Part shown: positions 1 through 50,829 of the stretch, one piece after another
How the letters are laid out: every line of letters starts with the position of its first letter
How positions within the stretch are numbered: the stretch's first letter is position 1
From: Apostichopus japonicus
Lineage: Eukaryota > Echinodermata > Holothuroidea > Aspidochirotida > Stichopodidae
DNA: 64,000 nt
Direction of reading: 5' to 3'
NCBI RefSeq assembly: GCF_037975245.1
Contig: NC_092566.1
Location: forward strand, 2,420,001-2,484,000
Notes under the pieces: generated by a model
The model's input: the letters and a program-made list of their open reading frames with translations, nothing else
Told to the model about the DNA's origin: nothing
Databases searched by the model: none
Translations under genes and position numbers: made by a program

Positions 1-2460
1 TAACTCTCTGTTGCTTGCAAGTGACGTTTTGTTTGTGTCGCTACAAAATGCAGACAGTAATGTAATGTGATACCTTAATTGTTATCATAAGCTGGACCTG
101 AGATGTCCATCGCTGTATGGTTTGTATAATGTGCTGTGGGTATTGACCGCAGCTGTATGTACTGACTGTACACTAGTGTCTAATTACCCACAGTAGCAAG
201 CTGTGTGTATTTTCTGGGATCGATGGTGATGTTTAACACTTCTGTTACACCTCATTCGAAACCAGGTCAAATAACCAGCACTAGACGTTTCTTTTTGCAC
301 GAGTCTTCACACCCTTTAATCAGCGTCTGGATAATTTGAAATTTGAATATGAAATAATCTGATTTTGTTCGGCTCAGTGCTTTCTTTGACCTGTATTTAA
401 TAAATATACACAGTATTTATCATCTGCCCATCCACCAACTTCAAGACAACTGGAACTTGACTCTTTCTCAAATTATCACTTTCATTTCTCAAAATGTGTA
501 GATCTATAAGAGAATATATTTGGTGTAATTTTGATGAATTCTACGTGACCTTTCTTTTATCATATGCTGTTCAATAGTTGTATAACTTTCTTTGTGTTGT
601 ACATAGTAAGATAATTAATGCATAGGGTGCTCAAGGAAGATGTGTCACCTTCTTTTCTATGTTATCTTGTGTAAGTGTGATGAACATTCACTATGTTTAC
701 ATAGATACTGCATATGAATGGAACTACAGAACAAATCACATACAACAACAGTTCTGGATTTTTATTACAACATTTATTTTAAAGGAGATGAAAAGGTAAA
801 CATTTTTTGTTCTTTATTTAATTAATGAGTTATGAAAGATCATCATGATATCTAACAAGTCTAATAGCCAATGATAATGCCCAAAAATGAATTTTTGGAA
901 GCCTCAAGGAGGCATCCATTATTTCCCGCACTTTTGATCATCCTCTGACAAAGAAATCTGCTGCACCAATTTACACGCATTTCATCCTTGAATTAAATAA
1001 TAGATTTTTATGTAACTTAAATATAAAAAATAAATTATATAAATATATGAAAATTAAAAAGGTATTTTTCAAGCACAAATTAATAAATCTAATGCATATT
1101 TCAGAGCTTGGTTGTTTAACATCAGGATAGCTTTCACTGGGTCTCAGACTCAGATGTTTGCGACCACGCTGCTTTAAGGAATGTTCCAGTGGTGGTCTTT
1201 AAAATGCTTAGCAAAATGTTGGAAATTTTCTATACATGGAAAACAAAATATCAATTGCATAACATGATGAATGCATTTGACAGTAGCACTGTGAAGATGT
1301 GACCATGGTAACATCAGAAAGTTGCATGGTAATAAAAATATAAATAGAGAGACTACTGACTTTTAAGCACTGAACCGAAATTATAACGAGCTGGAAGATG
1401 AATTTATATTGGAATACATTGCAGATTTAAAATCTTATCATTGTGAAACATAATACGAAAGCAAAATCTACTTGGAAATTAAAGTACTGTGAAGATGGGG
1501 ACATGAGAAAGTTGAATGGTAATAAAATATAAATAGATTGACAGCTAACCAAATGAATAGGTAATATTTCATAGATAAATCAACAAGAAGATAGCAATAG
1601 GAAAAAGTCAAGCTATTAAACAATGTCTACTACCATATAGACCACTGCTGCTCTAAAGGATATTCTGGTGGTAATTGTCATCCTCATTGAAGCAGTGAAC
1701 AGTAATTATAACAAGCTGGAAGATGAATTTATATTAAATTGCAGAATAAAACATCTGTGATTGTGAAATATCATATAAAAGCAAATATCCAAATCTACTT
1801 GTTTACAAATTTGGTCAGTTCCTTGGTATTCATTCAATAACAAATTTACTGTTTCTTAAGTTTAATCTTATCTATTTCTTAAAATTACAAGGCACTGCTG
1901 ATGTGTAATTGACAAACCCGTTCTCGGCACCAATACTTAACATCCCCAACCAACAGATGAGAGAGCATACGTGGACATCTAACCATTTTCTCAAGTACAT
2001 GATAGCATCTCATGCATCAACACTGCAGTGCAGCTATGGTGACAGAGCTTGTGTATAAAGAGAACAGAACCTAATGCAATTTTACCAATTTGCAAAACAG
2101 AAATACCAAACCCATGGAATAACTCCATTCCACAACACTGAACAGCAGCGATTTTTGAATAGGAATAACTTGTGCCTTCACCAAAACAACAAAATTAAAC
2201 AACAAATGATATTTAAAATGCTATTACAAGTGTCACTGGTTTTGTAGTAAGTTTGATATCACTTTACTTAAAGGTTCGTTCTTAAATGGTGAAATTAAAC
2301 AACTGAATCAGCTAAGCAAGTTCACATATCACAACAAATGTACATATCATGTTATGTTTACTAACATGATTGACTTCAGTTCAAGTTGCTATTCTTATTA
2401 TCTCTCTCAGACAAAACAATGGTCAGTTCATAGCTTGAATATTTCTCATCGAAAAAAATG
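1..2460. other. Intergenic, no gene recognised; diverged local duplications
   Basis: I see no convincing coding exon or RNA gene here. The sequence is AT-rich. Between about 1285 and 1790 there are diverged local duplications: a block around GAGCTGGAAGATGAATTTAT occurs near 1390 and, with one change, near 1714, and a block beginning TGTGAAGATG occurs near 1290 and 1489. These look like fragments of one old repeat family. Confidence 0.5.
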
Positions 2461-2464
2461 GCTT

Positions 2465-2600
2465 AACATTACTTATAAAAAAAATAATAATAATAAGGCA
2501 TTTATATAGCACCATGAGTCCATGACTAAAACGATATTCGATGGTGCTTTACAAGGAAGAAATAAAACATGCAAATGAACAAAAACAGCAACAAGACAGA
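2465..2600. mobile_element. Retroposon 3'-tail-like fragment
   Basis: An AATAATAATAAG run is followed by CATTTATATAGCACC and then GGTGCTTTACAAGG. The order 'microsatellite tail, ATTTATATAGCGC-like box, GCGCTTTACA-like box' is common at the 3' ends of SINE/LINE retroposons in many animals. No full-length element can be drawn from this copy, so its family is left open. The open frame on the minus strand through it is low-complexity (F/L-rich) and not a gene. Confidence 0.35.
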
Positions 2601-3192
2601 AAAGAGAAAAAATATGATTACTTCAAATGCCACACTAAAGAGAACTGTCTTCAGAGCTATTTTGAAAGAGAAATAAGTAAGTAAAACATATATATAGTTA
2701 CTATTAATAACTAAAGAAGGTAAGATCAAGTTAAAAAGTAAAAGACAGAGAGCCTACCCATCGAAGGACTAGGCAACCACCTAACGACTCAAATTGCTGT
2801 TGTAAAGTTTTATTGCACGAGGGATAAATGAATTGCGGTGCAGGTTAGTCTTTGGTTGAGGGAGTCTTAGGGCAGGGTCAAGGGAAATGTAACATTTGGG
2901 TTGAAATTGGAAATGTAAAGAGCATGGTCAAATGTGGTATGGCTAGATAGTTAAAGAGAGTTAATGTCAAGAAATGTTTAACCAAGGTGTTAGCTACTTT
3001 TTATGCTAAAGTAAAGAGCAAGTGAACTAGTGTCCCTTCGTTACCAGTAAAGGAGGGATAATTGTTTACTGCTCAAGTTGTGCACAGATTCCTGGGAGTT
3101 TACTTGCTACGTGTTGTGTTCTAAGAATGGAATTGTTGACTTCCTGTTTATGTGAGGAAAACAACAGCTTGACTAGCATTAATAAAATCTGA

Positions 3193-3644
3193 CTATAAAA
3201 TCTGAAAATTAAATGGGTGACTATAGTCGTCCCAAACGGAGTTGAGCTTGGATTGTGGGAGACACTGGTAGACAAAATCAACCACAGACTGAGACCCCCC
3301 TACTAATATTTCAGCTTTTTTAATGATGTTGTCAACACGATCCCTTTCTGTCTTACTAACATAACCACCCCAACAAATGAGGCAGTATCTCCAAACTCCA
3401 CAGATGGTAGCATTATAGAACATATCTAAAATTTCTGTACGCACATCGAAAAGTGAAATGTGGACCGATTAGCAACCAAAGACAACAGGATGGTCCACAG
3501 CCTGGCCCCAGTAACAGAAAATACACAGTTGCCAAAACTGTTTGTGCGGGTGGTGGGAATGTTTAAAGTCGTAGCAGATATACTTCTTATACGGTATGAC
3601 GAAACATGCTTAGTAAACATCTTATTTATCATGTAAATACACAC
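3193..3644 (-). mobile_element. Non-LTR retrotransposon (CR1-like) reverse-transcriptase remnant
   Basis: Two minus-strand open frames carry LINE-type C-terminal protein signatures. The one at 3644-3426 contains TTRTNSFGNCVFSVTGARLW, matching the family pattern 'PRTRTKTYGDRAFSVAGPKLWNSLP' found at the end of CR1-group ORF2 proteins. The one at 3444-3193 contains YCLICWGGYVSKTERDRVDN, resembling the 'LTFCLVCWFGNLS..NRLQKIVK' segment of other LINE reverse transcriptases. The frames are broken and out of the usual order, so this is a decayed, possibly compound remnant. No intact RT catalytic motif is present. Confidence 0.6.
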
Positions 3645-3911
3645 ATAAATGCTATATGTACAGTAACTACAAACACTATCTTTCTGTTATCAGTAAAGTT
3701 AAAATTATGACAATGGAGTGTTGACAAGATTTGGCACCCCCCCCCCAAAAAAAAAAAAATCTTTGTACTAGAGGTGTCATTGGCTCTGTACAGCTGCATC
3801 TGTACTGACAGCTTATTATTAATCATAAAGATTTGCTATGCAATGGTCACCTCTAGCAGATGCCAAGATACCTCTGGGAGAGGGGTCGTACTAGATTGGA
3901 ATATTACATGC

Positions 3912-4078
3912 TTACTTTGAGAGCAATACCTGATGAGTTTCCCCTTTTTTTTCACTTTCATGTTTGGAATACTTTATTATATCATGTCCCTTTTCAGAAG
4001 TTTGGAGTTGAATTATATTTCGTTTGCAACATTTGTATGACCTGTGATATTTTACTGTTAAAAATATACACACCATTA
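3912..4078 (-). pseudogene. Displaced original 3' end of the LRR membrane-protein gene
   Basis: If the hAT-like element at 4087-5113 and one target-site copy are removed in silico, the LRR reading frame joins this segment in frame and stays open for 54 codons to TAA at 3912-3914. The joined residues first complete the membrane span (MVCIFLTV) and are followed at once by a basic stop-transfer region (KYHRSYKCCKRN) and a charged cytoplasmic tail rich in K, E, H and S. That is exactly what a type I membrane protein should have. In the present arrangement the segment is cut off from the gene by the element's stop codon. A plus-strand open frame at 3860-4237 is only its antisense shadow. Confidence 0.7.
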
Positions 4079-4086
4079 CACAGCAT
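4079..4086. repeat. Left 8-bp target-site duplication of the hAT-like element
   Basis: CACAGCAT immediately outside the left inverted repeat; its partner CACAGCCT is at 5114-5121. Seven of eight bases agree. Confidence 0.75.
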
Positions 4087-5113
4087 TAGTGTTTACACGG
4101 GTCCAAAAATCGGGAACCGGGTACCCGAGGGTCGTTACCCGTCGGGTATCCGGGTACCCGGAAAAAAATTTGTTTACCCGCGTGTATCACGATTTTCAAG
4201 AAATTACGTATTGGATGCTGTAATAAATGCATTATAATCTCTACTGACCATGTTTTCATGTTCAAATACGTAGGTGTAAGATAAGGTATAAAACCCCCCT
4301 CAATAATTTTTATTTGCTTCTGTTTCTTTCATTAACTTGTTAATAAATAAATTATTTAATTATAATTAGCATTACTACTAACATCGCACTGCCGCCGCTG
4401 CTTATGCTAGCTCGTGCACGTCTATTGGATCAAACCATATAAATATCCAGTTGAGCTCTTAACCTGTTTTTAATACTACTACTATCTATTATGCAGGCCC
4501 AGGGTTCGCATTAGCCGCGAGATTGCGCGATTCGCGCAATTTGATCACATTTGGAATAAACGATTAGTAAAAAGCCACTTGCGATTACTATTTTTTAGTT
4601 ATCCCGTCTATAATCCATAAACATCGCGTAAAATTCCTTGTCAGCCTTTCCTTCTTTGAAATAATCGAATGAATAAATATTAATTTCTTCCACATGGTAG
4701 CCTATCACCACACTATGTCAATGAGAAATCTAGCTAAGCCTAACTATCTGTTTATTTGCTGGAGTTGTGACGCAGTTATAAGACATCTATGAAATACTTT
4801 CGTTATTGCTGTTACGTTTGACCACATGGTTGCCTAACACCACACTAAGTCAATGGGGGTAGTCTAGCCTAGCCATCTGTTTATTAGCTGAAATTGTGAC
4901 GCAGTTATAAGATATCTATGGAAAGCTTTCGTTATTGCTGTTATCTTCGAACACATGGTAGCCTAACAACACACTAAGTCAATGGGAAATCAGCCTAACC
5001 ATCGGTTTGCAATTTTTTTTTAAACTATCACACTTTGCGTATGATTCGGGTAATAAATTGGAACAGGATAGTACCACATCGGGCGGGTACCCGGGTAACC
5101 CATGCAAACACTA
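4087..5113. mobile_element. Non-autonomous hAT-like DNA transposon, about 1.03 kb
   Basis: The ends are inverted repeats starting TAGTGTTTACACGGGT at the left and, on the complementary strand, TAGTGTTTGCATGGGT at the right; sub-terminal ACCCGGGTACCCG-type motifs occur at both ends. The flanks are CACAGCAT (4079-4086) and CACAGCCT (5114-5121), an 8-bp target-site duplication with one mismatch, as expected for the hAT superfamily. No transposase is encoded. Inside, a tandem repeat of about 130 bp (2-3 copies, starting at CACATGGTAGCC near 4691, 4822 and 4952) makes up much of the right half. Confidence 0.8.
4691..5010. repeat. Tandem repeat, period about 130 bp, inside the hAT-like element
   Basis: Blocks beginning CACATGGTAGCC, CACATGGTTGCC and CACATGGTAGCC near 4691, 4822 and 4952. 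Each has downstream matches such as ACACTAAGTCAATGGG, and the first two also share GTGACGCAGTTATAAGA. The third copy is incomplete. Confidence 0.75.
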
Positions 5114-5969
5114 CACAGCCTATGAAAATACATGATATAATTATAGCTGCGATCGGTGCCAGTTGTGCTGAATTAGGTTTGGCTGATGTATTTGTAGCAA
5201 ATGATGTTGGTGTAGATGTTGGTGTGGTAGAGTGTGTTTCTGAATTTACCTGGTCTATGCAAATAAGTCTGTTTGTAAAATTATTAGTCTGTAACAACAT
5301 TTCCACTGTCTTATTCAAGAAAAAAATTTCTGCTCTTTTGCTTTCAAAAGTCACAATAGCAGACCCTCTGCCACACATCAAATGCACTGCTACAGGGCCT
5401 TCCAATGTAACATTAAAACAATTAGAACATGGACATGGAAGTTTTTTAAGTGGAGTTCCACTAAATCTTACCTGGTTCAATTTATCATTTTTTTCAAATG
5501 CAGCCTCATCTATCGCAAATAGGTTTGGACAATTTTTAACAGACAAGATTTTCAAATTGGGCAAATCAATTGTAGAGTTATTTGAAAATTGTTCTAAGGG
5601 GTTGTCGTTCATTGATAAGAACTCTAAGTCACCATTTATTAACTTAGGCATTACAACAAATTTATTTCCATCTAAGAACACTTCTCTTAGGTTGACAACA
5701 TTCTGGAACACAGTTGGTGACAAGCTTCTCAATCTATTGCCTGTCAAGTTAATAATTTCACAGGTCATATGATGGAATGCATCCTCACAGACGTGTTCAT
5801 AGCCTTGATGACTGAAATCGCATCGCGTACTACCATCAAACAGGGCTCTTTTGACATCATCTGCATCTAAGACTGAGTCTTTTGGACTTCTATCGCCAGG
5901 TGAACAAACCGGTATATCTGCATATGCAGCAGCTGATATGGCAATTAGAAACCCCAGAACTTGAAGCAT
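5028..5969 (-). CDS. Leucine-rich-repeat type I membrane protein, C-terminus replaced by a transposon
   Basis: A single open frame of 313 codons. Residues 1-17 form a signal peptide (hydrophobic, ending ..AAAYA). A cysteine-containing N-terminal part (C22, C50, C61, C70) is followed by about five leucine-rich repeats from roughly 72 to 178 (for example NLTGNRLRSLSPTVF and LPNLKILSVKNCPNL). A short cysteine cluster (C179, C181, C184, C199) resembles a degenerate LRR C-cap. A Ser/Thr/Pro-rich stalk spans about 243-268, with several N-glycosylation sequons, then a hydrophobic segment from about 271. Predicted role: extracellular binding or adhesion; the ligand is unknown. A hAT-like element begins at codon 286, so residues 287-313 and the stop are transposon sequence. 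Without the element the frame continues 54 codons to a stop at 3912-3914. The closest named family is not identifiable by eye. I chose this ATG because it directly precedes the signal peptide. Confidence 0.75.
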   Translation of the reverse strand: MLQVLGFLIAISAAAYADIPVCSPGDRSPKDSVLDADDVKRALFDGSTRCDFSHQGYEHVCEDAFHHMTCEIINLTGNRLRSLSPTVFQNVVNLREVFLDGNKFVVMPKLINGDLEFLSMNDNPLEQFSNNSTIDLPNLKILSVKNCPNLFAIDEAAFEKNDKLNQVRFSGTPLKKLPCPCSNCFNVTLEGPVAVHLMCGRGSAIVTFESKRAEIFFLNKTVEMLLQTNNFTNRLICIDQVNSETHSTTPTSTPTSFATNTSAKPNSAQLAPIAAIIISCIFIGCVVFAWVTRVPARCGTILFQFITRIIRKV

Positions 5970-9917: not shown

Positions 9918-10040
9918 CCAACAACCATTTCGCCCAACTGCCATTTCGCCCAACCTTACCATTTCGCCCAACCAGCCTGGTCATTTCACCCAACCAGCCT
10001 GGTCATTTCGCCCAACCAGCCTGGTCATTTCGCCCAACCT
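9918..10040 (+). repeat. 22-bp minisatellite array, left arm
   Basis: About five units built on CATTTCGCCCAAC with variable CAGCCTGGT spacers; the first units lack the full spacer. The short open frames rich in 'FRPTSLVISPNQPGH' are translations of this repeat, not proteins. Confidence 0.9.
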
Positions 10041-11040: not shown

Positions 11041-11290
11041 GGTTGGGTGAAATGACCAACACGGTTGGGCGAAATGACCAACACGGTTGGGCGAAATGAC
11101 CATGCTGGTTGGGCGAAATGACTATGATGGTTGGGCGAAATGACCATGCTGGTTGGGCGAAATGACCAGGCTGGTTGGGCGAAATGACTATGATGGTTGG
11201 GCGAAATGACCATGCTGGTTGGGCGAAATGACCAGGCTGGTTGGGCGAAATGACCAGGCTGGTTGGGCGAAATGGTTGTTGGGCGAAGTG
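11041..11290 (-). repeat. 22-bp minisatellite array, right arm (inverted)
   Basis: About eleven units of GGTTGGGCGAAATGACCA followed by a 4-6 base variable piece (ACAC, TGCT, TGAT, GGCT). It is the inverse complement of the left arm and ends with the same terminal CACTTCGCCC motif inverted. Confidence 0.9.
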
Positions 11291-22950: not shown

Positions 22951-23155
22951 TTATGTGTGTACTGTGTGTACTCTGTGATTGTATTTTTCCCCTGTATATT
23001 TTGTCATCCAGCCTCTTACTTTTGACTAGTTGTACGAAGTGTGCAAAACGCGGTTTTCAAAAGTTTGACGTATTGATATATTTTATTAAGTGTGCACGTC
23101 AATGCAATGTCCTTTCTACGCTTCCGTACGATACAGAAATAATCAAGTTAATCAA
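22950..23155 (+). repeat. Left-edge sequence of the 230-bp satellite array
   Basis: Shares TTGTACGAAGTGTGC and CGTATTGATATATTTTATTA with the inverse complement of 12,885-13,080. It leads directly into the first satellite monomer, so it marks the non-repeated side of the founder element. Confidence 0.8.
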
Positions 23156-26100
23156 AACAGAATTGGCATATTTTGCATGTGTTCCGGGCCCGTGCGCCAA
23201 GGAAAATAGGGATTTGACCCAAACTAAGTCCTGACCCAAATTTCGTATGTACCAGCTAGGTGTTCATGAAGTATGAGTACCATACCGTGGGGGGCTTGGG
23301 ACTGGGGGCTCTGAACATTTGCAACACCCCACGGAGCTAACACAAAGTCAATGGGAGCTGTTTCATTTTTTGTCTAAGTCCAAAACAAAATTGGCATATC
23401 TGGCATGTGTTCCGGGCCCCGTGCGCCAAGGAAAATAGGGATTTGACCCAAACTAAGTCCTGACCCAAATTTTGTATGTACTAGTTGGACATTCATGAAG
23501 TTTGAGTACCATACCGTGGGGGGCTTGGGACTGGGGGCCTTGAACATTTGCAACACCCCACGGAGCTAACACAAAGTCAATGGGAGCTGTTTCATTTTTT
23601 GTCTAAGTCCAAAACAAAATTGGCATATCTGGCATGTGTTCCGGGCCCTGTGCGCCAAGGAAAATAGGGATTTGACCCAAACCAAGTCCTGACCCAAATT
23701 TCGTGTATACCAGCTAGGTGTTCATGAAGTTTGAGTACCATACCGTGGGGGGCTTGGGACTGGGGGCCTTGAACATTTGCAACACCCCACGGAGCTAACA
23801 CAAAGTCAATGGGAGCTGTTTCATTTTTTTGTCTAAGTCCAAAACAAAATTGGCATATCTGGCATGTGTTCCGGGCCCCGTGCGCCAAGGAAAATAGGGA
23901 TTTGACCCAAACTAAGTCCTGACCCAAATTTTGTATGTACTAGTTGGACATTCATGAAGTTTGAGTACCATACCGTGGGGGGCTTGGGACTGGGGGCCTT
24001 GAACATTTGCAACACCCCACGGAGCTAACACAAAGTCAATGGGAGCTGTTTCATTTTTTGTCTAAGTCTAAAACAAAATTGGCATATCTGGCATGTGTTC
24101 CGGGCCCCGTGCGCCAAGGAAAATAGGGATTTGACCCAAACTAAGTCCTGACCCAAATTTCATATGTACCAGCTAGACGTTCATGAAGTATGAGTACCAT
24201 ACCGTGGGGATCTTGGGACTGGGGGATTTCAACATTTGCAACACCCCACGGAGCTAACACAAATCAATGGGAGCTGTTTCATTTTTTGTCTAAGTCCAAA
24301 ACAAAATTGGCATATCTGGCATGTGTTCCGGGGCCCCGTGCGCCAAGGAAAATAGGGATTTGACCCAAACTAAGTCCTGACCCAAATTTCGTATGTACCA
24401 GTTGGACGTTCATGAAGTTTGAGTACCATACCGTGGGGGGCTTGGGACTGGGGGCCTTGAACATTTGCAACACCCCACGGAGCTAACACAAAGTCAATGG
24501 GAGCTGTTTCATTTTTTGTCTAAGTCCAAAACAAAATTGGCATATCTGGCATGTGTTCCGGGCCCTGTGCGCCAAGGAAAATAGGGATTTGACCCAAACC
24601 AAGTCCTGACCCAAATTTCGTGTATACCAGCTAGGTGTTCATGAAGTTTGAGTACCATACCGTGGGGGGCTTGGGACTGGGGGCCTTGAACATTTGCAAC
24701 ACCCCACGGAGCTAACACAAAGTCAATGGGAGCTGTTTCATTTTTTTGTCTAAGTCCAAAACAAAATTGGCATATCTGGCATGTGTTCCGGGCCCCGTGC
24801 GCCAAGGAAAATAGGGATTTGACCCAAACTAAGTCCTGACCCAAATTTCATATGTACCAGCTAGACGTTCATGAAGTATGAGTACCATACCGTGGGGATC
24901 TTGGGACTGGGGGCTTTCAACATTTGCAACACCCCACGGAGCTAACACAAAGTCAATGGGAGCTGTTTCATTTTTTGTCTAAGTCCAAAACAAAATTGGC
25001 ATATCTGGCATGTGTTCCGGGCCCCGTGCGCCAAGGAAAATAGGGATTTGACCCAAACTAAGTCCTGACCCAAATTTCGTATGTACCAGCTAGACGTTCA
25101 TGAAGTATGAGTACCATACCGTGGGGGGTTTGGGACTGGGGGCTTTGAACATTTGCAACACCCCACGGAGCTAACACAAAGTCAATGGGAGCTGTTTCAT
25201 TTTTTGTCTAAGTCCAAAACAAAATTGGCATATCTGGCATGTGTTCCGGGCCCCGTGTGCCAAGGAAAATAGGGATTTGACCCAAACTAAGTCCTGACCC
25301 AAATTTCGTATGTACCAGCTAGACGTTCATGAAGTATGAGTACCATACCGTGGGGGGCTTGGGACTGGGGGCTTGGGACTGGGGGCTCTCAACATTTGCA
25401 ACACCCCACGGAGCTAACACAAAGTCAATGGGAGCTGTTTCATTTTTTTTTCTAAGTCTAAAACAAAATTGGCATATCTGGCATGTGTTCCGGGCCCCTT
25501 GCGCCAAGGAAAATAGGGATTTGAACCAAACTAAGTCCTGACCCAAATTTCGTATGTACCAGTTGGACGTTCATGAAGTTTGAGTACCATACCGTGGGGG
25601 GCTTGGGACTGGGGGCCTTGAACATTTGCAACACCCCACGGAGCTAACACAAAGTCAATGGGAGCTGTTTCATTTTTTGTCTAAGTCCAAAACAAAATTG
25701 GCATATCTGGCATGTGTTCCGGGCCCCGTGCGCCAAGGAAAATAGGGATTTGACCTAAACGAAGTCCTGACCCAAATTTCGTATGTACCAGCTAGGTGTT
25801 CATGAAGTTTGAGTACCATACCGTGGGGGGCTTGGGACTGGGGGCCTTGAACATTTGCAACACCCCACGGAGCTAACACAAAGTCAATGGGAGCTGTTTC
25901 ATTTTTTTGTCTAAGTCCAAAACAAAATTGGCATATCTGGCATGTGTTCCGGGCCCTGTGCGCCAAGGAAAATAGGGATTTGACCCAAACCAAGTCCTGA
26001 CCCAAATTTCGTATGTACCAGCTAGACGTTCATGAAGTATGAGTACCATACCGTGGGGATCTTGGGACTGGGGGATTTCAACATTTGCAACACCCCACGG

Positions 26101-29100
26101 AGCTAACACAAAGTCAATGGGAGCTGTTTCATTTTTTGTCTAAGTCCAAAACAAAATTGGCATATCTGGCATGTGTTCCGGGCCCCGTGCGCCAAGGAAA
26201 ATAGGGATTTGACCCAAACGAAGTCCTGACCCAAATTTCGTGTATACCAGCTAGGTGTTCATGAAGTTTGAGTACCATACCGTGGGGGGCTTGGGACTGG
26301 GGGCCTTGAACATTTGCAACACCCCACGGAGCTAACACAAAGTCAATGGGAGCTGTTTCAGTTTTTGTCTAAGTCCAAAACAAAATTGGCATATCTGGCA
26401 TGTGTTCCGGGCCCTGTGCGCCAAGGAAAATAGGGATTTGACCCAAACCAAGTCCTGACCCAAATTTCGTATGTACCAGCTAGACGTTCATGAAGTATGA
26501 GTACCATACCGTGGGGGGTTTGGGACTGGGGGCTTTGAACATTTGCAACACCCCACGGAGCTAACACAAAGTCAATGGGAGCTGTTTCATTTTTTGTCTT
26601 AAGTCCAAAACAAAATTGGCATATCTGGCATGTGTTCCGGGCCCCGTGCGCCAAGGAAAATAGGGATTTGACCCAAACTAAGTCCTGACCCAAATTTCGT
26701 ATGTACCAGCTAGACGTTCATGAAGTATGAGTACCATACCGTGGGGGGCTTGGGACTGGGGGCTTGGGACTGGGGGCTCTCAACATTTGCAACACCCCAC
26801 GGAGCTAACACAAAGTCAATGGGAGCTGTTTCATTTTTTTTTCTAAGTCTAAAACAAAATTGGCATATCTGGCATGTGTTCCGGGCCCCTTGCGCCAAGG
26901 AAAATAGGGATTTGACCCAAACTAAGTCCTGACCCAAATTTCGTATGTACCAGTTGGACGTTCATGAAGTTTGAGTACCATACCGTGGGGGGCTTGGGAC
27001 TGGGGGCCTTGAACATTTGCAACACCCCACGGAGCTAACACAAAGTCAATGGGAGCTGTTTCATTTTTTGTCTAAGTCCAAAACAAAATTGGCATATCTG
27101 GCATGTGTTCCGGGCCCTGTGCGCCAAGGAAAATAGGGATTTGACCCAAACTAAGTCCTGACCCAAATTTCGTATGTACCAGCTAGACGTTCATGAAGTA
27201 TGAGTACCATACCGTGGGGGGCTTGGGACTGGGGGCTTGGGACTGGGGGCTCTCAACATTTGCAACACCCCACGGAGCTAACACAAAGTCAATGGGAGCT
27301 GTTTCATTTTTTGTCTAAGTCCAAAACAAAATTGGCATATCTGGCATGTGTTCCGGGCCCCGTGCGCCAAGGAAAATAGGGATTTGACCCAAACCAAGTC
27401 CTGACCCAAATTTCGTATGTACCAGTTGGACGTTCATGAAGTTTGAGTACCATACCGTGGGGGGCTTGGGACTGGGGGCCTTGAACATTTGCAACACCCC
27501 ACGGAGCTAACACAAAGTCAATGGGAGCTGTTCCATTTTTTGTCTAAGTCCAAAACAAAATTGGCATATCTGGCATGTGTTCCGGGCCCTGTGCGCCAAG
27601 GAAAATAGGGATTTGACCCAAACCAAGTCCTGACCCAAATTTCGTATGTACCAGCTAGACGTTCATGAAGTATGAGTACCATACCGTGGGGATCTTGGGA
27701 CTGGGGGATTTCAACATTTGCAACACCCCACGGAGCTAACACAAAGTCAATGGGAGCTGTTTCATTTTTTGTCTAAGTCCAAAACAAAATTGGCATATCT
27801 GGCATGTGTTCCGGGCCCCGTGCGCCAAGGAAAATAGGGATTTGACCCAAACGAAGTCCTGAAACAAATTTCGTGTATACCAGCTAGGTGTTCATGAAGT
27901 TTGAGTACCATACCGTGGGGGGCTTGGGACTGGGGGCCTTGAACATTTGCAACACCCCACGGAGCTAACACAAAGTCAATGGGAGCTGTTTCATTTTTTG
28001 TCTAAGTCCAAAACAAAATTGGCATATCTGGCATGTGTTCCGGGCCCTGTGCGCCAAGGAAAATAGGGATTTGACCCAAACCAAGTCCTGACCCAAATTT
28101 CGTATGTACCAGCTAGACGTTCATGAAGTATGAGTACCATACCGTGGGGGGTTTGGGACTGGGGGCTTTGAACATTTGCAACACCCCACGGAGCTAACAC
28201 AAAGTCAATGGGAGCTGTTCCATTTTTTGTCTTAAGTCCAAAACAAAATTGGCATATCTGGCATGTGTTCCGGGCCCCGTGCGCCAAGGAAAATAGGGAT
28301 TTGACCCAAACTAAGTCCTGACCCAAATTTCGTATGTACCAGCTAGACGTTCATGAAGTATGAGTACCATACCGTGGGGGGCTTGGGACTGGGGGCTTGG
28401 GACTGGGGGCTCTCAACATTTGCAACACCCCACGGAGCTAACACAAAGTCAATGGGAGCTGTTTCATTTTTTTTTCTAAGTCTAAAACAAAATTGGCATA
28501 TCTGGCATGTGTTCCGGGCCCCTTGCGCCAAGGAAAATAGGGATTTGACCCAAACTAAGTCCTGACCCAAATTTCGTATGTACCAGTTGGACGTTCATGA
28601 AGTTTGAGTACCATACCGTGGGGGGCTTGGGACTGGGGGCCTTGAACATTTGCAACACCCCACGGAGCTAACACAAAGTCAATGGGAGCTGTTTCATTTT
28701 TTGTCTAAGTCCAAAACAAAATTGGCATATCTGGCATGTGTTCCGGGCCCTGTGCGCCAAGGAAAATAGGGATTTGACCCAAACTAAGTCCTGACCCAAA
28801 TTTCGTATGTACCAGCTAGACGTTCATGAAGTATGAGTACCATACCGTGGGGGGCTTGGGACTGGGGGCTTGGGACTGGGGGCTCTCAACATTTGCAACA
28901 CCCCACGGAGCTAACACAAAGTCAATGGGAGCTGTTTCATTTTTTTTTCTAAGTCTAAAACAAAATTGGCATATCTGGCATGTGTTCCGGGCCCCTTGCG
29001 CCAAGGAAAATAGGGATTTGACCCAAACTAAGTCCTGACCCAAATTTCGTATGTACCAGTTGGACGTTCATGAAGTTTGAGTACCATACCGTGGGGGGCT

Positions 29101-32100
29101 TGGGACTGGGGGCCTTGAACATTTGCAACACCCCACGGAGCTAACACAAAGTCAATGGGAGCTGTTTCATTTTTTGTCTAAGTCCAAAACAAAATTGGCA
29201 TATCTGGCATGTGTTCCGGGCCCTGTGCGCCAAGGAAAATAGGGATTTGACCCAAACTAAGTCCTGACCCAAATTTCGTATGTACCAGCTAGACGTTCAT
29301 GAAGTATGAGTACCATACCGTGGGGGGCTTGGGACTGGGGGCTTGGGACTGGGGGCTCTCAACATTTGCAACACCCCACGGAGCTAACACAAAGTCAATG
29401 GGAGCTGTTTCATTTTTTGTCTAAGTCCAAAACAAAATTGGCATATCTGGCATGTGTTCCGGGCCCCGTGCGCCAAGGAAAATAGGGATTTGACCCAAAC
29501 TAAGTCCTGACCCAAATTTCGTATGTACCAGTTGGACGTTCATGAAGTTTGAGTACCATACCGTGGGGGGCTTGGGACTGGGGGCCTTGAACATTTGCAA
29601 CACCCCACGGAGCTAACACAAAGTCAATGGGAGCTGTTCCATTTTTTGTCTAAGTCCAAAACAAAATTGGCATATCTGGCATGTGTTCCGGGCCCTGTGC
29701 GCCAAGGAAAATAGGGATTTGACCCAAACCAAGTCCTGACCCAAATTTCGTATGTACCAGCTAGACGTTCATGAAGTATGAGTACCATACCGTGGGGATC
29801 TTGGGACTGGGGGATTTCAACATTTGCAACACCCCACGGAGCTAACACAAAGTCAATGGGAGCTGTTTCATTTTTTGTCTAAGTCCAAAACAAAATTGGC
29901 ATATCTGGCATGTGTTCCGGGCCCCGTGCGCCAAGGAAAATAGGGATTTGACCCAAACGAAGTCCTGAAACAAATTTCGTGTATACCAGCTAGGTGTTCA
30001 TGAAGTTTGAGTACCATACCGTGGGGGGCTTGGGACTGGGGGCCTTGAACATTTGCAACACCCCACGGAGCTAACACAAAGTCAATGGGAGCTGTTTCAT
30101 TTTTTGTCTAAGTCCAAAACAAAATTGGCATATCTGGCATGTGTTCCGGGCCCTGTGCGCCAAGGAAAATAGGGATTTGACCCAAACCAAGTCCTGACCC
30201 AAATTTCGTATGTACCAGCTAGACGTTCATGAAGTATGAGTACCATACCGTGGGGGGTTTGGGACTGGGGGCTTTGAACATTTGCAACACCCCACGGAGC
30301 TAACACAAAGTCAATGGGAGCTGTTCCATTTTTTGTCTTAAGTCCAAAACAAAATTGGCATATCTGGCATGTGTTCCGGGCCCCGTGCGCCAAGGAAAAT
30401 AGGGATTTGACCCAAACTAAGTCCTGACCCAAATTTCGTATGTACCAGCTAGACGTTCATGAAGTATGAGTACCATACCGTGGGGGGCTTGGGACTGGGG
30501 GCTTGGGACTGGGGGCTCTCAACATTTGCAACACCCCACGGAGCTAACACAAAGTCAATGGGAGCTGTTTCATTTTTTTTTCTAAGTCTAAAACAAAATT
30601 GGCATATCTGGCATGTGTTCCGGGCCCTGTGCGCCAAGGAAAATAGGGATTTGACCCAAACTAAGTCCTGACCCAAATTTCGTATGTACCAGTTGGACGT
30701 TCATGAAGTTTGAGTACCATACCGTGGGGGGCTTGGGACTGGGGGCCTTGAACATTTGCAACACCCCACGGAGCTAACACAAAGTCAATGGGAGCTGTTT
30801 CATTTTTTGTCTAAGTCCAAAACAAAATTGGCATATCTGGCATGTGTTCCGGGCCCTGTGCGCCAAGGAAAATAGGGATTTGACCCAAACTAAGTCCTGA
30901 CCCAAATTTCGTATGTACCAGCTAGACGTTCATGAAGTATGAGTACCATACCGTGGGGGGCTTGGGACTGGGGGCTTGGGACTGGGGGCTCTCAACATTT
31001 GCAACACCCCACGGAGCTAACACAAAGTCAATGGGAGCTGTTTCATTTTTTTTTCTAAGTCTAAAACAAAATTGGCATATCTGGCATGTGTTCCGGGCCC
31101 CTTGCGCCAAGGAAAATAGGGATTTGACCCAAACTAAGTCCTGACCCAAATTTCGTATGTACCAGTTGGACGTTCATGAAGTTTGAGTACCATACCGTGG
31201 GGGGCTTGGGACTGGGGGCCTTGAACATTTGCAACACCCCACGGAGCTAACACAAAGTCAATGGGAGCTGTTTCATTTTTTGTCTAAGTCCAAAACAAAA
31301 TTGGCATATCTGGCATGTGTTCCGGGCCCTGTGCGCCAAGGAAAATAGGGATTTGACCCAAACTAAGTCCTGACCCAAATTTCGTATGTACCAGCTAGAC
31401 GTTCATGAAGTATGAGTACCATACCGTGGGGGGCTTGGGACTGGGGGCTTGGGACTGGGGGCTCTCAACATTTGCAACACCCCACGGAGCTAACACAAAG
31501 TCAATGGGAGCTGTTTCATTTTTTGTCTAAGTCCAAAACAAAATTGGCATATCTGGCATGTGTTCCGGGCCCCGTGCGCCAAGGAAAATAGGGATTTGAC
31601 CCAAACTAAGTCCTGACCCAAATTTCGTATGTACCAGTTGGACGTTCATGAAGTTTGAGTACCATACCGTGGGGGGCTTGGGACTGGGGGCCTTGAACAT
31701 TTGCAACACCCCACGGAGCTAACACAAAGTCAATGGGAGCTGTTCCATTTTTTGTCTAAGTCCAAAACAAAATTGGCATATCTGGCATGTGTTCCGGGCC
31801 CTGTGCGCCAAGGAAAATAGGGATTTGACCCAAACCAAGTCCTGACCCAAATTTCGTATGTACCAGCTAGACGTTCATGAAGTATGAGTACCATACCGTG
31901 GGGATCTTGGGACTGGGGGATTTCAACATTTGCAACACCCCACGGAGCTAACACAAAGTCAATGGGAGCTGTTTCATTTTTTGTCTAAGTCCAAAACAAA
32001 ATTGGCATATCTGGCATGTGTTCCGGGCCCCGTGCGCCAAGGAAAATAGGGATTTGACCCAAACGAAGTCCTGACCCAAATTTCGTGTATACCAGCTAGG

Positions 32101-35100
32101 TGTTCATGAAGTTTGAGTACCATACCGTGGGGGGCTTGGGACTGGGGGCCTTGAACATTTGCAACACCCCACGGAGCTAACACAAAGTCAATGGGAGCTG
32201 TTTCATTTTTTGTCTAAGTCCAAAACAAAATTGGCATATCTGGCATGTGTTCCGGGCCCTGTGCGCCAAGGAAAATAGGGATTTGACCCAAACCAAGTCC
32301 TGACCCAAATTTCGTATGTACCAGCTAGACGTTCATGAAGTATGAGTACCATACCGTGGGGGGTTTGGGACTGGGGGCTTTGAACATTTGCAACACCCCA
32401 CGGAGCTAACACAAAGTCAATGGGAGCTGTTCCATTTTTTGTCTTAAGTCCAAAACAAAATTGGCATATCTGGCATGTGTTCCGGGCCCCGTGCGCCAAG
32501 GAAAATAGGGATTTGACCCAAACTAAGTCCTGACCCAAATTTCGTATGTACCAGCTAGACGTTCATGAAGTATGAGTACCATACCGTGGGGGGCTTGGGA
32601 CTGGGGGCTTGGGACTGGGGGCTCTCAACATTTGCAACACCCCACGGAGCTAACACAAAGTCAATGGGAGCTGTTTCATTTTTTTTTCTAAGTCTAAAAC
32701 AAAATTGGCATATCTGGCATGTGTTCCGGGCCCCTTGCGCCAAGGAAAATAGGGATTTGACCCAAACTAAGTCCTGACCCAAATTTCGTATGTACCAGTT
32801 GGACGTTCATGAAGTTTGAGTACCATACCGTGGGGGGCTTGGGACTGGGGGCCTTGAACATTTGCAACACCCCACGGAGCTAACACAAAGTCAATGGGAG
32901 CTGTTTCATTTTTTGTCTAAGTCCAAAACAAAATTGGCATATCTGGCATGTGTTCCGGGCCCTGTGCGCCAAGGAAAATAGGGATTTGACCCAAACTAAG
33001 TCCTGACCCAAATTTCGTATGTACCAGCTAGACGTTCATGAAGTATGAGTACCATACCGTGGGGGGCTTGGGACTGGGGGCTTGGGACTGGGGGCTCTCA
33101 ACATTTGCAACACCCCACGGAGCTAACACAAAGTCAATGGGAGCTGTTTCATTTTTTGTCTAAGTCCAAAACAAAATTGGCATATCTGGCATGTGTTCCG
33201 GGCCCCGTGCGCCAAGGAAAATAGGGATTTGACCCAAACTAAGTCCTGACCCAAATTTCGTATGTACCAGTTGGACGTTCATGAAGTTTGAGTACCATAC
33301 CGTGGGGGGCTTGGGACTGGGGGCCTTGAACATTTGCAACACCCCACGGAGCTAACACAAAGTCAATGGGAGCTGTTCCATTTTTTGTCTAAGTCCAAAA
33401 CAAAATTGGCATATCTGGCATGTGTTCCGGGCCCCGTGCGCCAAGGAAAATAGGGATTTGACCCAAACTAAGTCCTGACCCAAATTTCGTATGTACCAGC
33501 TAGACGTTCATGAAGTATGAGTACCATACCGTGGGGGGTTTGGGACTGGGGGCTTTGAACATTTGCAACACCCCACGGAGCTAACACAAAGTCAATGGGA
33601 GCTGTTTCATTTTTTTGTCTAAGTCCAAAACAAAATTGGCATATCTGGCATGTGTTCCGGGCCCTGTGCGCCAAGGAAAATAGGGATTTGACCCAAACTA
33701 AGTCCTGACCCAAATTTCGTATGTACCAGCTAGACGTTCATGAAGTATGAGTACCATACCGTGGGGGGCTTGGGACTGGGGGCTTGGGACTGGGGGCTCT
33801 CAACATTTGCAACACCCCACGGAGCTAACACAAAGTCAATGGGAGCTGTTTCATTTTTTTTTCTAAGTCTAAAACAAAATTGGCATATCTGGCATGTGTT
33901 CCGGGCCCCTTGCGCCAAGGAAAATAGGGATTTGACCCAAACTAAGTCCTGACCCAAATTTCGTATGTACCAGTTGGACGTTCATGAAGTTTGAGTACCA
34001 TACCGTGGGGGGCTTGGGACTGGGGGCCTTGAACATTTGCAACACCCCACGGAGCTAACACAAAGTCAATGGGAGCTGTTTCATTTTTTGTCTAAGTCCA
34101 AAACAAAATTGGCATATCTGGCATGTGTTCCGGGCCCCGTGCGCCAAGGAAAATAGGGATTTGACTCAAACTAAGTCCTGACCCAAATTTCGTATGTACC
34201 AGTTGGACGTTCATGAAGTTTGAGTACCATACCGTGGGGGGCTTGGGACTGGGGGCCTTGAACATTTGCAACACCCCACGGAGCTAACACAAAGTCAATG
34301 GGAGCTGTTCCATTTTTTGTCTTAAGTCCAAAACAAAATTGGCATATCTGGCATGTGTTCCGGGCCCCGTGCGCCAAGGAAAATAGGGATTTGACCCAAA
34401 CTAAGTCCTGACCCAAACGTATGTACCAGCTAGACGTTCATGAAGTATGAGTACCATACCGTGGGGGGCTTGGGACTGGGGGCTTTGAACATTTGCAACA
34501 CCCCACGGAGCTAACACAAAGTCAATGGGAGCTGTTTCATTTTTTGTCTAAGTCCAAAACAAAATTGGCATATCTGGCATGTGTTCCGAGCCCCGTGCGC
34601 CAAGGAAAATAGGGATTTGACCCAAACTAAGTCCTGACCCAAATTTCGTGTATACCAGCTAGGTGTTCATGAAGTTTGAGTACCATACCGTGGGGGGCTT
34701 GGGACTGGGGGCCTTGAACATTTGCAACACCCCACGGAGCTAACACAAAGTCAATGGGAGCTGTTTCATTTTTTTGTCTAAGTCCAAAACAAAATTGGCA
34801 TATCTGGCATGTGTTCCGGGCCCCGTGTGCCAAGGAAAATAGGGATTTGACCCAAACGAAGTCCTGACCCAAATTTCGTGTATACCAGCTAGGTGTTCAT
34901 GAAGTTTGAGTACCATACCGTGGGGGGCTTGGGACTGGGGGCCTTGAACATTTGCAACACCCCACGGAGCTAACACAAAGTCAATGGGAGCTGTTTCATT
35001 TTTTTGTCTAAGTCCAAAACAAAATTGGCATATCTGGCATGTGTTCCGGGCCCCGTGCGCCAAGGAAAATAGGGATTTGACCCAAACGAAGTCCTGACCC

Positions 35101-38100
35101 AAATTTCGTGTATACCAGCTAGGTGTTCATGAAGTTTGAGTACCATACCGTGGGGGGCTTGGGACTGGGGGCCTTGAACATTTGCAACACCCCACGGAGC
35201 TAACACAAAGTCAATGGGAGCTGTTTCATTTTTTTGTCTAAGTCCAAAACAAAATTGGCATATCTGGCATGTGTTCCGGGCCCTGTGCGCCAAGGAAAAT
35301 AGGGATTTGACCCAAACCAAGTCCTGACCCAAATTTCGTATGTACCAGCTAGACGTTCATGAAGTATGAGTACCATACCGTGGGGATCTTGGGACTGGGG
35401 GATTTCAACATTTGCAACACCCCACGGAGCTAACACAAAGTCAATGGGAGCTGTTTCATTTTTTGTCTAAGTCCAAAACAAAATTGGCATATCTGGCATG
35501 TGTTCCGGGCCCTGTGCGCCAAGGAAAATAGGGATTTGACCCAAACCAAGTCCTGACCCAAATTTCGTATGTACCAGCTAGACGTTCATGAAGTATGAGT
35601 ACCATACCGTGGGGGGTTTGGGACTGGGGGCTTTGAACATTTGCAACACCCCACGGAGCTAACACAAAGTCAATGGGAGCTGTTCCATTTTTTGTCTTAA
35701 GTCCAAAACAAAATTGGCATATCTGGCATGTGTTCCGGGCCCCGTGCGCCAAGGAAAATAGGGATTTGACCCAAACTAAGTCCTGACCCAAATTTCGTAT
35801 GTACCAGCTAGACGTTCATGAAGTATGAGTACCATACCGTGGGGGGCTTGGGACTGGGGGCTTGGGACTGGGGGCTCTCAACATTTGCAACACCCCACGG
35901 AGCTAACACAAAGTCAATGGGAGCTGTTTCATTTTTTTTTCTAAGTCTAAAACAAAATTGGCATATCTGGCATGTGTTCCGGGCCCCTTGCGCCAAGGAA
36001 AATAGGGATTTGACCCAAACTAAGTCCTGACCCAAATTTCGTATGTACCAGTTGGACGTTCATGAAGTTTGAGTACCATACCGTGGGGGGCTTGGGACTG
36101 GGGGCCTTGAACATTTGCAACACCCCACGGAGCTAACACAAAGTCAATGGGAGCTGTTTCATTTTTTGTCTAAGTCCAAAACAAAATTGGCATATCTGGC
36201 ATGTGTTCCGGGCCCTGTGCGCCAAGGAAAATAGGGATTTGACCCAAACTAAGTCCTGACCCAAATTTCGTATGTACCAGCTAGACGTTCATGAAGTATG
36301 AGTACCATACCGTGGGGGGCTTGGGACTGGGGGCTTGGGACTGGGGGCTCTCAACATTTGCAACACCCCACGGAGCTAACACAAAGTCAATGGGAGCTGT
36401 TTCATTTTTTGTCTAAGTCCAAAACAAAATTGGCATATCTGGCATGTGTTCCGGGCCCCGTGCGCCAAGGAAAATAGGGATTTGACCCAAACTAAGTCCT
36501 GACCCAAATTTCGTATGTACCAGTTGGACGTTCATGAAGTTTGAGTACCATACCGTGGGGGGCTTGGGACTGGGGGCCTTGAACATTTGCAACACCCCAC
36601 GGAGCTAACACAAAGTCAATGGGAGCTGTTCCATTTTTTGTCTAAGTCCAAAACAAAATTGGCATATCTGGCATGTGTTCCGGGCCCCGTGCGCCAAGGA
36701 AAATAGGGATTTGACCCAAACTAAGTCCTGACCCAAATTTCGTATGTACCAGCTAGACGTTCATGAAGTATGAGTACCATACCGTGGGGGGTTTGGGACT
36801 GGGGGCTTTGAACATTTGCAACACCCCACGGAGCTAACACAAAGTCAATGGGAGCTGTTTCATTTTTTTGTCTAAGTCCAAAACAAAATTGGCATATCTG
36901 GCATGTGTTCCGGGCCCTGTGCGCCAAGGAAAATAGGGATTTGACCCAAACTAAGTCCTGACCCAAATTTCGTATGTACCAGCTAGACGTTCATGAAGTA
37001 TGAGTACCATACCGTGGGGGGCTTGGGACTGGGGGCTTGGGACTGGGGGCTCTCAACATTTGCAACACCCCACGGAGCTAACACAAAGTCAATGGGAGCT
37101 GTTTCATTTTTTTTTCTAAGTCTAAAACAAAATTGGCATATCTGGCATGTGTTCCGGGCCCCTTGCGCCAAGGAAAATAGGGATTTGACCCAAACTAAGT
37201 CCTGACCCAAATTTCGTATGTACCAGTTGGACGTTCATGAAGTTTGAGTACCATACCGTGGGGGGCTTGGGACTGGGGGCCTTGAACATTTGCAACACCC
37301 CACGGAGCTAACACAAAGTCAATGGGAGCTGTTTCATTTTTTGTCTAAGTCCAAAACAAAATTGGCATATCTGGCATGTGTTCCGGGCCCCGTGCGCCAA
37401 GGAAAATAGGGATTTGACCCAAACTAAGTCCTGACCCAAATTTCGTATGTACCAGTTGGACGTTCATGAAGTTTGAGTACCATACCGTGGGGGGCTTGGG
37501 ACTGGGGGCCTTGAACATTTGCAACACCCCACGGAGCTAACACAAAGTCAATGGGAGCTGTTCCATTTTTTGTCTTAAGTCCAAAACAAAATTGGCATAT
37601 CTGGCATGTGTTCCGGGCCCCGTGCGCCAAGGAAAATAGGGATTTGACCCAAACTAAGTCCTGAACCAAATTTCGTATGTACCAGCTAGACGTTCATGAA
37701 GTATGAGTACCATACCGTGGGGGGCTTGGGACTGGGGGCTTTGAACATTTGCAACACCCCACGGAGCTAACACAAAGTCAATGGGAGCTGTTTCATTTTT
37801 TGTCTAAGTCCAAAACAAAATTGGCATATCTGGCATGTGTTCCGAGCCCCGTGCGCCAAGGAAAATAGGGATTTGACCCAAACGAAGTCCTGACCCAAAT
37901 TTCGTGTATACCAGCTAGGTGTTCATGAAGTTTGAGTACCATACCGTGGGGGGCTTGGGACTGGGGGCCTTGAACATTTGCAACACCCCACGGAGCTAAC
38001 ACAAAGTCAATGGGAGCTGTTTCATTTTTTTGTCTAAGTCCAAAACAAAATTGGCATATCTGGCATGTGTTCCGGGCCCCGTGTGCCAAGGAAAATAGGG

Positions 38101-38115
38101 ATTTGACCCAAACTA
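23155..38115. repeat. Satellite array 1: about 64 monomers of about 230 bp with higher-order structure
   Basis: Monomer landmarks in order: AATTGGCATATCTGGCATGT, CCAAGGAAAATAGGGATTTG, AAGTCCTGACCCAAATTTCG, CATGAAGTTTGAGTACCATA, CCGTGGGG, TTGGGACTGGGGG, AACATTTGCAA, CCCCACGG, AGTCAATGGGAGCTGTTTCA. Copies differ by only a few bases. Fifteen units have an extra 15 bp (CTTGGGACTGGGGG duplicated). Variant patterns repeat at 2,106 bp (for example at 26,710, 28,816 and 30,922, and at 28,343, 30,449 and 32,555), at 473 bp (28,343 to 28,816) and at 3,253 bp (33,160 to 36,413). Neither 230 nor 245 is a multiple of three, so the recurring 60-120-codon frames on both strands are not genes. Confidence 0.97.
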
Positions 38116-38119
38116 ACAC

Positions 38120-39540: not shown

Positions 39541-42500
39541 ATGGGAAACATGAAGAAGGGTGGGGTGAACGTTAAAGCTGACATTACACTCTACCAAAGT
39601 ATGTCAACAACCGTGAGGGACGATGTCGGGCAGGGGGTTATTAACAATTAACTCGGCAACTGAAAGTAAAACGTAGCATATATATACTGTTATTCAAAAC
39701 CACATCTGGCAAACAAATCAAATCTGTAACTCAGTATCATTGGGGAGCAAAAACGTAGCTGACGTCACCAGCTATCACCCCATACCAACAAAACCTCGGG
39801 GGACGGTATCAATTAAGGTATTATAACACCCAAACTCAACGCAAAGTCGCATATACAGTTTATATACGTTTTTTCAACACGATTTTTGACTAACAAATCA
39901 AATCTGTAACTCAGTATCATTGGGGTCCCCATGGTAGCTGACGTCACCCTCTACCACCCCATACCAACAAACCTCGGGGGACGGTATGATTTAGGGTGTT
40001 ATTAACACCCAAACTCGACGAAAAGTATCATCTACAGTTTAAATACGGTTTTTCAACACGATTTTTGGCTAACAAATCAAATCTGTAACTCAGTATCATT
40101 GGGGTCCCCATGGTAGCTGACGTCACCCTCTATCACCCCATACCAACAAACCTCGGGGGACGGTATCATTTAGGGTGTTATTAACACCCAAACTCGACGC
40201 AAAGTCTCATTTACAGTTTATATACGGTTTTTCAACACGATTTTTGGCTAACAAATCAAATCTATAACTCAGTATCATTGGGGTCCTCAAAGTAGCTGAC
40301 GTCACCAGCAATCACCCCATACCAACAAACCTCGGGGGACGGTATCATTTAAGGTGTTATTAACACCCAAACTCAACGAAAAGTCTCATTTACAGTTTAT
40401 ATACGGTTCTTCAACATGATTTTTGACTAACAAATCAAATTTGTAACTCAGTATCATCGGGGAGCAAAAACGTAGCTGACGTCACCAGCTATCACCCCAT
40501 ACCAACAAACCTCGCGGGACGGTATCATTTAAGGTGTTATTAACACCCAAACTCGAAGAAAAGTATCATCTACAGTTTAAATACGGTTTTTCAACACGAT
40601 TTTTGGCTAACAAGTCAAATCTGTAACTCAGTATCATTGGGGTCCCCATGGTAGCTGACGTCACCCTCTATCACCTCATACCAACAAACCTCGGGGGACG
40701 GTATCATTTAAGGTGTTATTAACACCCAAACTCAACGAAAAGTATCATCTACAGTTTAAATACGGTTTTTCAACATGATTTTTTGGCTAAAAAATCAAAT
40801 CTGTAACTCAGTATCATTGGGGTCCCCATGGTAGCTGACGTCACCCTCTACCACCCCATACCAACAAACCTCGGGGGACGGTATCATTTAGGGTGTTATT
40901 AACACCCAAACTCGACGAAAAGTATCATCTACAGTTTAAATACGGTTTTTCAACACGATTTTTGGCTAACAAATCAAATCTGTAACTCAGTATCATTGGG
41001 GTCCCCAAAGTAGCTGACGTCACCAGCTATCACCCCATACCAACAAACCTCTTGGGAAGGTATCATATAAGGTGTTATTAACACCCAAACTCAACGCAAA
41101 GTCTCATTTACAGTTTATATACGGTTTTTCAACATGATTTTTGACTAACAAATCAAATCTGTAACTCAGTATCATCGGGGAGCAAAAACGTAGCTGACGT
41201 CACCAGCTATCACCCCATACCAACAAACCTTGGGGGACGGTATCATTTAAGGTGTTATTAACACCCAAACTCGACGAAAAGTCTCATTTACAGTTTACAT
41301 ACGGTTTTTCAACATGATTTTTGACTAACAAATCAAATCTGTAACTCAGTATCATCGGGGAGCAAAAACGTAGCTGACGTCACCAGCTATCACCCCATAC
41401 CAACAAACCTCTTGGGACGGTATCATTTAAGGTGTTATTAACACCCAAACTCAACGCAAAGTCTCATTTACAGTTTATATACGGTTCTTCAACATGATTT
41501 TTGACTAACAAATCAAATTTGTAACTCAGTATCATCGGAGAGCAAAAACGTAGCTGACGTCACCAGCTATCACCCCATACCAACAAACCTCGCGGGACGG
41601 TATCATTTAAGGTGTTATTAACACCCAAACTCGAAGAAAAGTATCATCTACAGTTTAAATACGGTGTTTCAACATGATTTTTTGGCTAACAAATCAAATC
41701 TGTAACTCAGTATCATTGGGGTCCCCATGGTAGCTGACGTCACCCTCTACCACCCCATACCAACAAACCTCGGGGGACGGTATGATTTAGGGTGTTATGA
41801 ACACCCAAACTCGACGAAAAGTATCATCTACAGTTTAAATACGGTTTTTCAACACGATTTTTGGCTAACAAATCAAATCTGTAACTCAGTATCATTGGGG
41901 TCCCCAAAGTAGCTGACGTCACCAGCTATCACCCCATACCAACAAACCTCTTGGGAAGGTATCATATAAGGTGTTATTAACACCCAAACTCAACGCAAAG
42001 TCTCATTTACAGTTTATATACGGTTTTTCAACATGATTTTTGACTAACAAATCAAATCTGTAACTCAGTATCATCGGGGAGCAAAAACGTAGCTGACGTC
42101 ACCAGCTATCACCCCATACCAACAAACCTTGGGGGAAGGTATCATTTAAGGTGTTATTAACACCCAAACTCGACGAAAAGTCTCATTTACAGTTTATATA
42201 CGGTTTTTCAACATGATTTTTGACTAACAAATCAAATCTGTAACTCAGTATCATCGGAGAGCAAAAACGTAGCTGACGTCACCAGCTATCACCCCATACC
42301 AACAAACCTCTTGGGACGGTATCATTTAAGGTGTTATTAACACCCAAACTCAACGCAAAGTCTCATTTACAGTTTATATACGGTTCTTCAACATGATTTT
42401 TGACTAACAAATCAAATTTGTAACTCAGTATCATCGGAGAGCAAAAACGTAGCTGACGTCACCCTCTACCACCCCATACCAACAAACCTCGGGGGACGGT

Positions 42501-50756: not shown

Positions 50757-50829
50757 AGCCTCCAGGGAGATTTGAACTCCCGACCCCTGGTTTACAAGAC
50801 CAGTGCTCTAACCACTGAGCTATAGAGGC
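50757..50829 (-). tRNA. tRNA-Thr (anticodon UGU)
   Basis: On the minus strand the sequence folds as a standard 73-base cloverleaf. The acceptor stem GCCTCTA/TGGAGGC has one G-U pair; the D-arm region AGCTCAGTGGTTAGAGC gives the A-box; the anticodon stem CTGGT/ACCAG encloses the loop CTTGTAA, with anticodon TGT, so it reads ACA (Thr). The variable loop is GGGTC-like, and the T-arm GGGAG-TTCAAAT-CTCCC contains the B-box. There is no intron. A TTTT run follows within a few bases, a normal Pol III stop. It is expected to be expressed, as no invariant base is lost. Confidence 0.93.

Follow-up and report, generated by a model that had tools for sequence, protein, structure and literature searches.

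A well-delimited hAT-like transposable element sits in the coding frame of a single-copy LRR receptor gene in a 64,000-nucleotide stretch of Apostichopus japonicus DNA (here called the window). We judge it about 80% probable that this insertion has swapped the inner tail of the receptor while its membrane anchor was kept. Under this reading, a non-autonomous element belonging to a large family would have been pasted by a transposase acting in trans into the codons of the membrane span, duplicating 8 bp; translation would now pass through the end of the element for 28 codons before it stops; and the product would stay a type I membrane protein, its 21-residue basic tail replacing a native cytoplasmic region at least 46 residues long. 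Signaling that depends on that native region would be lost. The features on which this reading is built are collected in Table 1.

Table 1. Positions of the host gene, the inserted element and the sites associated with them (window coordinates)
Feature	Position	Strand	Basis
LRR gene, 285 codons plus one base	5114-5969	-	Translation; Pfam LRR_8; one strong genome match
C terminus of the current protein encoded by the element, VVFAWVTRVPARCGTILFQFITRIIRKV, with its stop; one base of the first codon is from the host	5028-5113	-	Translation
Non-autonomous hAT-like element, 1,027 bp, of a high-copy family	4087-5113		Inverted ends, genome copies, end pattern, target duplications
Terminal inverted repeat, left	4087-4102	+	Arm comparison, 16 nt, 88%
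Terminal inverted repeat, right	5098-5113	-	Arm comparison, 16 nt, 88%
Target-site duplication copy, CACAGCAT	4079-4086		Flank comparison
Target-site duplication copy, CACAGCCT, one mismatch	5114-5121		Flank comparison
Minisatellite in the element, 129-bp unit, 2.3 copies	4690-4986		Tandem-repeat scan
Pair of polyadenylation-like AATAAA motifs within the element, starting at 4885 and 4756	4751-4885	-	Motif scan
Probable displaced native continuation: 54 open codons, span completion, basic stop-transfer, charged tail, TAA	3912-4078	-	Joined translation, hydropathy; one genome match; codon usage not supportive
Splice-donor-like AAA|GTAAGC at the native stop, which it overlaps (7/9 of the consensus)	3910-3918	-	Donor scan

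A hAT-like element in the coding frame of an LRR receptor gene

Up to the element, the LRR frame runs without a stop or a frameshift, and its codon 286 is split, 285 codons and one base preceding the insertion. The octamers on either side of the element agree at seven of eight positions. An initial annotation, made from the letters of the window alone, had described an element with inverted ends and a 7/8 duplication inside this codon; its coordinates proved to be right, and the borders are backed by other copies of the family. The window copy contains no ORF of more than 80 amino acids (aa), even when frames that extend one base past its ends are counted, and the copies of the family vary in length.

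The LRR protein begins with a signal-peptide-like stretch and continues through an LRR domain and a stalk rich in Ser and Thr into the initial half of a membrane span (start, stalk and span judged by eye), with the Pfam family LRR_8 matched at residues 58 to 104 (E = 8e-9; 35.6 bits against a cut-off of 27). Its likeness to extracellular LRR proteins of solved structure (IGFALS, LRRC15, LRRTM and lamprey VLR) consists of a sequence match within residues 44 to 183; no close relative or orthologue was found in the sequences searched. A protein search of the 671.6-Mb genome (671,581,487 bases in 35 contigs) returned one strong match, the four others being LRR matches at 27 to 30% identity, and thus no close paralogue.

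Just downstream of the LRR gene, at positions 2781 to 3468 on the minus strand, lies what looks by eye like the degenerate reverse-transcriptase end of a LINE; two frames searched in this remnant, which lies within window positions 1 to 3900, had no reverse-transcriptase match in Pfam. Elsewhere, the window holds tandem repeats. A 15-kb array at 23153 to 38116 consists of 64 copies of a 229-bp unit (also read as a 459-bp unit) with 93 to 95% matches, and most of the ORFs listed there look by eye like unit repeats; a second array (39707 to 43484) holds 21 copies of a 180-bp unit, and related units of a 22-bp minisatellite lie in opposite orientation about 1 kb apart (11041 to 11274 and 9960 to 10039). 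Other genes are those for a tRNA (50757 to 50829, minus strand; 73.9 bits), the only Rfam match in the window at gathering scores, and for the cohesin release factor WAPL (53004 to 60350, plus strand), for which Pfam WAPL is matched at 59964 to 60347 with an E value of 2.3e-9. The frame at 53004 appears by eye to be the N-terminal part of WAPL, and no Pfam family matched it.

Family membership and age of the element

Among the best 40 of 1,689 candidate matches in the genome, the window copy included, at least 39 other long copies of the element were found at 93 to 97% identity, and a 29-mer of its right end (5085 to 5113) recurred at 463 genomic sites with up to three mismatches, compared with none for the reversed control. 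Target sites were compared in 48 copies, 28 of them taken from the 40 long matches (window copy included) and 20 from sites of the end pattern. For the latter sample, 20 sites were fetched; one (L017) was dropped for want of a second end, which was also absent from its extension L035 (one end present, no second end within 6 kb), another (L020) was replaced by its extension L037, a 1,366-bp copy of the element, and L036 was one further listed end. No frame longer than 110 aa was present at L035, L036 or L037. At positions 4002 to 5901 of L036, a 1.9-kb sequence related to the element has similar ends, an 8/8 duplication and pieces at 81 to 89% identity; it perhaps belongs to a subfamily that is older or longer.

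The same ends are flanked by perfect 8-bp duplications in 46 of the 48 copies; the exceptions were the window copy (7/8) and L026 (2/8), the latter probably mispaired. Outside the duplications, the flanks differed between copies (eight copies viewed). The target pattern nTnnnnAn (T second, A seventh) was present in 37 of the 46 perfect duplications, compared with an expectation of about 10% if A and T are each assumed to make up 31%; in the first 24 copies, 17 cases were seen and 2.3 expected. At the window copy's own target site, T occupies position 2 in one of the two duplication copies, and there is no A at position 7.

Hermes is a member of the Ac-like group of the hAT superfamily. The marks of that group, as given in excerpts of the sources cited, are an 8-bp target duplication and inverted ends of 10 to 25 bp (PMC3942097, PMC8961557), together with the nTnnnnAn target preference, which is stated for Hermes (PMC10368747) and treated as an Ac-family mark in hobo (PMC8961557). 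Our element shares the duplication, the preference and short inverted ends, those of the window copy (16 nt, 88%) falling within the hAT range; in contrast to hobo, Hermes and their group, no transposase was found for its family, and it is by ends and targets that it is placed there. Transposase domains of this kind are common in the genome (at least 150 hAT dimerization domains scored, of 633 candidates), but when the 150 scored domains were compared by eye with the best 100 of the 463 end sites, none lay within 5 kb of an element end. Because ends and targets fit, because there is no transposase-sized ORF and because no genomic transposase could be tied to the ends, we classify the element as non-autonomous and hAT-like, with Ac-like as our best guess; high-copy members without a transposase-sized ORF are likewise found among the non-autonomous or MITE members of hAT.

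The insertion had also been proposed to be recent or polymorphic, on the grounds that the frame survives across the gap. In a comparison with 25 other copies over 1,026 positions, 16 substitutions were private to the window copy (1.56%), and all of them stayed private against 47 others on 916 columns (1.75%), the eighth highest rate of the 48. The 48-copy alignment contained eight gap runs found in the window copy only, along with the 916 scored window columns; since 1,026 columns of that copy were scored in the comparison with 25 others, and since it is equal in length to L005, these runs were taken as alignment faults and not used. On the basis of its private rate and its imperfect duplication (the only one of the 48 apart from L026), the window copy is older than most sampled members of the family and not among the youngest, which leaves the proposal of recency weak. 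Heterozygosity in A. japonicus is given in the part of PMC5638244 drawn on here as 1.59% by k-mers and 0.73% by mapping, the latter called an underestimate. Set against these values, the private rate, which makes the insertion look too old if its source is missing from the sample, puts the upper bound on age at about within-species diversity or somewhat beyond, so that a fixed and a polymorphic insertion are both possible.

The survival of the frames is not very informative either: at 1.56% divergence, frames free of constraint would stay open with a probability of about 0.69 for the native tail and about 0.20 for the LRR frame (indel share of 0.09, derived from the SNP and INDEL counts in the same part of PMC5638244; frameshift share assumed to be 0.85). 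These figures bear on the most serious competitor of our reading, namely, that the allele is dead: with the same anatomy, its transcript or protein would be degraded, the gene would be decaying, and the element-coded tail would have no role. An open reading frame need not be in use, given that a neutral 285-codon frame has that chance of being intact, and neither selection nor excess conservation is apparent in the captured codons, with 3 of the 16 private substitutions falling in the first 85 element positions, where 1.3 would be expected if they were evenly spread. However, the LRR frame is uninterrupted and a run of membrane length is preserved; we regard a dead allele as a substantial possibility, appreciably less probable than an altered but membrane-anchored receptor.

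The probable displaced and the present carboxyl termini

Removal of the element in a script confirmed the earlier proposal that the LRR frame joins 54 further codons: VMVCIFLTV is followed by KYHRSYKCCKRN, the joined part amounting to 55 codons when codon 286 is counted, with TAA at 3912 to 3914. The membrane span is thereby completed to a run of 22 residues that contains none of D, E, K, R, N, Q, H and P, and the next 12 residues, forming a basic stop-transfer, have a net charge of +5. At 121,602 other overlapping offsets on both strands of the rest of the window, an open frame as long was found in 5.8% of cases and a run as long in 2.0%; run and basic charge coincided at six offsets, and all three features (run of at least 22, net +5, at least 55 codons) at one. 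The features of this test had been chosen with the tail already in view, and offsets that neighbor each other are not independent. The tail DNA (3880 to 4078) had one match in the 671.6-Mb genome, and the tail protein also had one, besides one at E = 6.2, so that neither search revealed a second close copy. No Pfam family reached its cut-off in a search of the tail for cytoplasmic domains, with nothing better than E = 0.16, which again sets the protein apart from the extracellular LRR proteins named above.

By codon usage, the tail does not stand out as coding sequence. Its score is equalled or exceeded in 66% of background windows and is surpassed by both of its shifted frames; for five LRR-frame blocks, the background share was 4 to 20%. 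We consider this weak evidence against coding, since the training set was small, consisting of the LRR frame and a single long frame that by eye seemed to be a WAPL exon, and since Lys and membrane-type residues abound in the tail. The reading of these codons as the native tail draws on the hydrophobic completion and the stop-transfer and finds no backing in codon usage. A different origin of the frame at 3915 to 4076, with the original exon stopping inside the membrane span and the remainder located elsewhere, would be compatible with the background-like codon usage, with the frequency of open frames of this length (5.8%) and with a donor-like ATG|GTGTGT at 4074 (7/9). We consider it unlikely, given that hydrophobic completion and then basic stop-transfer follow in the right phase, and we take the frame at 3912 to 4078 to be probably the displaced native end. 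Because a donor-like site overlaps its stop (Table 1), the native gene may extend past 3912 to 3914 into another exon; no such exon could be named, ORFs of at least 90 aa having been listed for the next 10 kb beyond the window (L058).

As it stands, the ORF encodes 313 aa. The initial annotation attributed residues 287 to 313 and the stop to the element, and translation agrees, adding two of the three bases of residue 286. It also held that the membrane segment was altered and the native tail lost; the element does replace the C terminus, but a span of 20 residues is still predicted. This span, IAAIIISCIFIGCVVFAWVT, is free of the same eight residues and has a best 19-residue Kyte-Doolittle mean of 2.82, compared with a run of 13 and a mean of 2.04 for the host part alone and a run of 22 and a mean of 3.02 for the joined form. 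Its residues VVFAWVT come from the element, and the 21 residues after it include five basic and no acidic ones. Secretion of the present product, which had been suggested as possible, was rejected as the default and is not favored, the element-coded residues keeping a run of membrane length (20, compared with 22 when joined). We predict a type I membrane protein with a basic tail, a topology that follows from hydropathy and from a signal peptide judged by eye.

Keeping the anchor was mild luck, as a run of 20 or more is reached at 5.0% of other window offsets. At the position of the tryptophan in VVFAWVT, 21 of the 26 copies compared have arginine (VVFAR), 17 of them reading VVFARVIR, and an arginine there would cut the run to 17. 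The tryptophan need not postdate the insertion, since the window copy shares it with four others (L019, L022, L023 and L026). That selection has kept the end of the element, in the VVFAWVT frame, as a working C terminus, providing anchor and basic tail for a possibly fixed receptor with altered signaling, seems to us a very slim prospect.

Transcripts could end at the two AATAAA signals of Table 1, which lie 143 and 272 nt past the stop encoded by the element; there is a third such signal, starting at 4314. If, in contrast, the element were removed from the mRNA as an intron, or as a portion of one, the native tail would still be made. Acceptor-like sequences are available, one in the native tail just past the element (ATTTTTAACAG, with 9 of 14 pyrimidines, below the set cut-off of 10) and others at 5119 and 4844, and a weak GT can be discerned by eye at the 5' junction. 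However, a scan from 5230 to 3900 found donors of at least 7/9 at 4249, 4074 and 3916 only, with none in the end of the LRR part or, read in the sense of the gene, in the element's initial 860 bp, and use of the weak GT at the junction would leave a shorter membrane span. We therefore hold removal by splicing to be highly improbable and retain translation into the element as the preferred reading.

Meaning for the receptor

The mutation is of an ordinary type, a known kind of event that happens to be preserved neatly. A parallel comes from human IFNAR2, for which an exonized transposon is described, in the part of PMC10680173 drawn on here, as yielding a truncated decoy receptor isoform; what is shared is that a mobile element ends a receptor early. 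In IFNAR2, however, an exonized element gives rise to a decoy isoform, whereas the insertion in the LRR gene lies in the coding frame and would alter every transcript of the allele unless it is spliced out, and the LRR product, unlike the truncated decoy, is predicted to keep its membrane span. Besides this parallel, we found no precedent for such rewriting of a receptor in the literature searched, which is not to claim that there is none.

The locus thus offers a clean case in which a cut-and-paste element would have rewritten the cytoplasmic end of a single-copy surface receptor, with the outer part and the anchor still readable. If the insertion segregates, it would provide a natural comparison, with and without the element, for the tail of this receptor in a probably farmed echinoderm.
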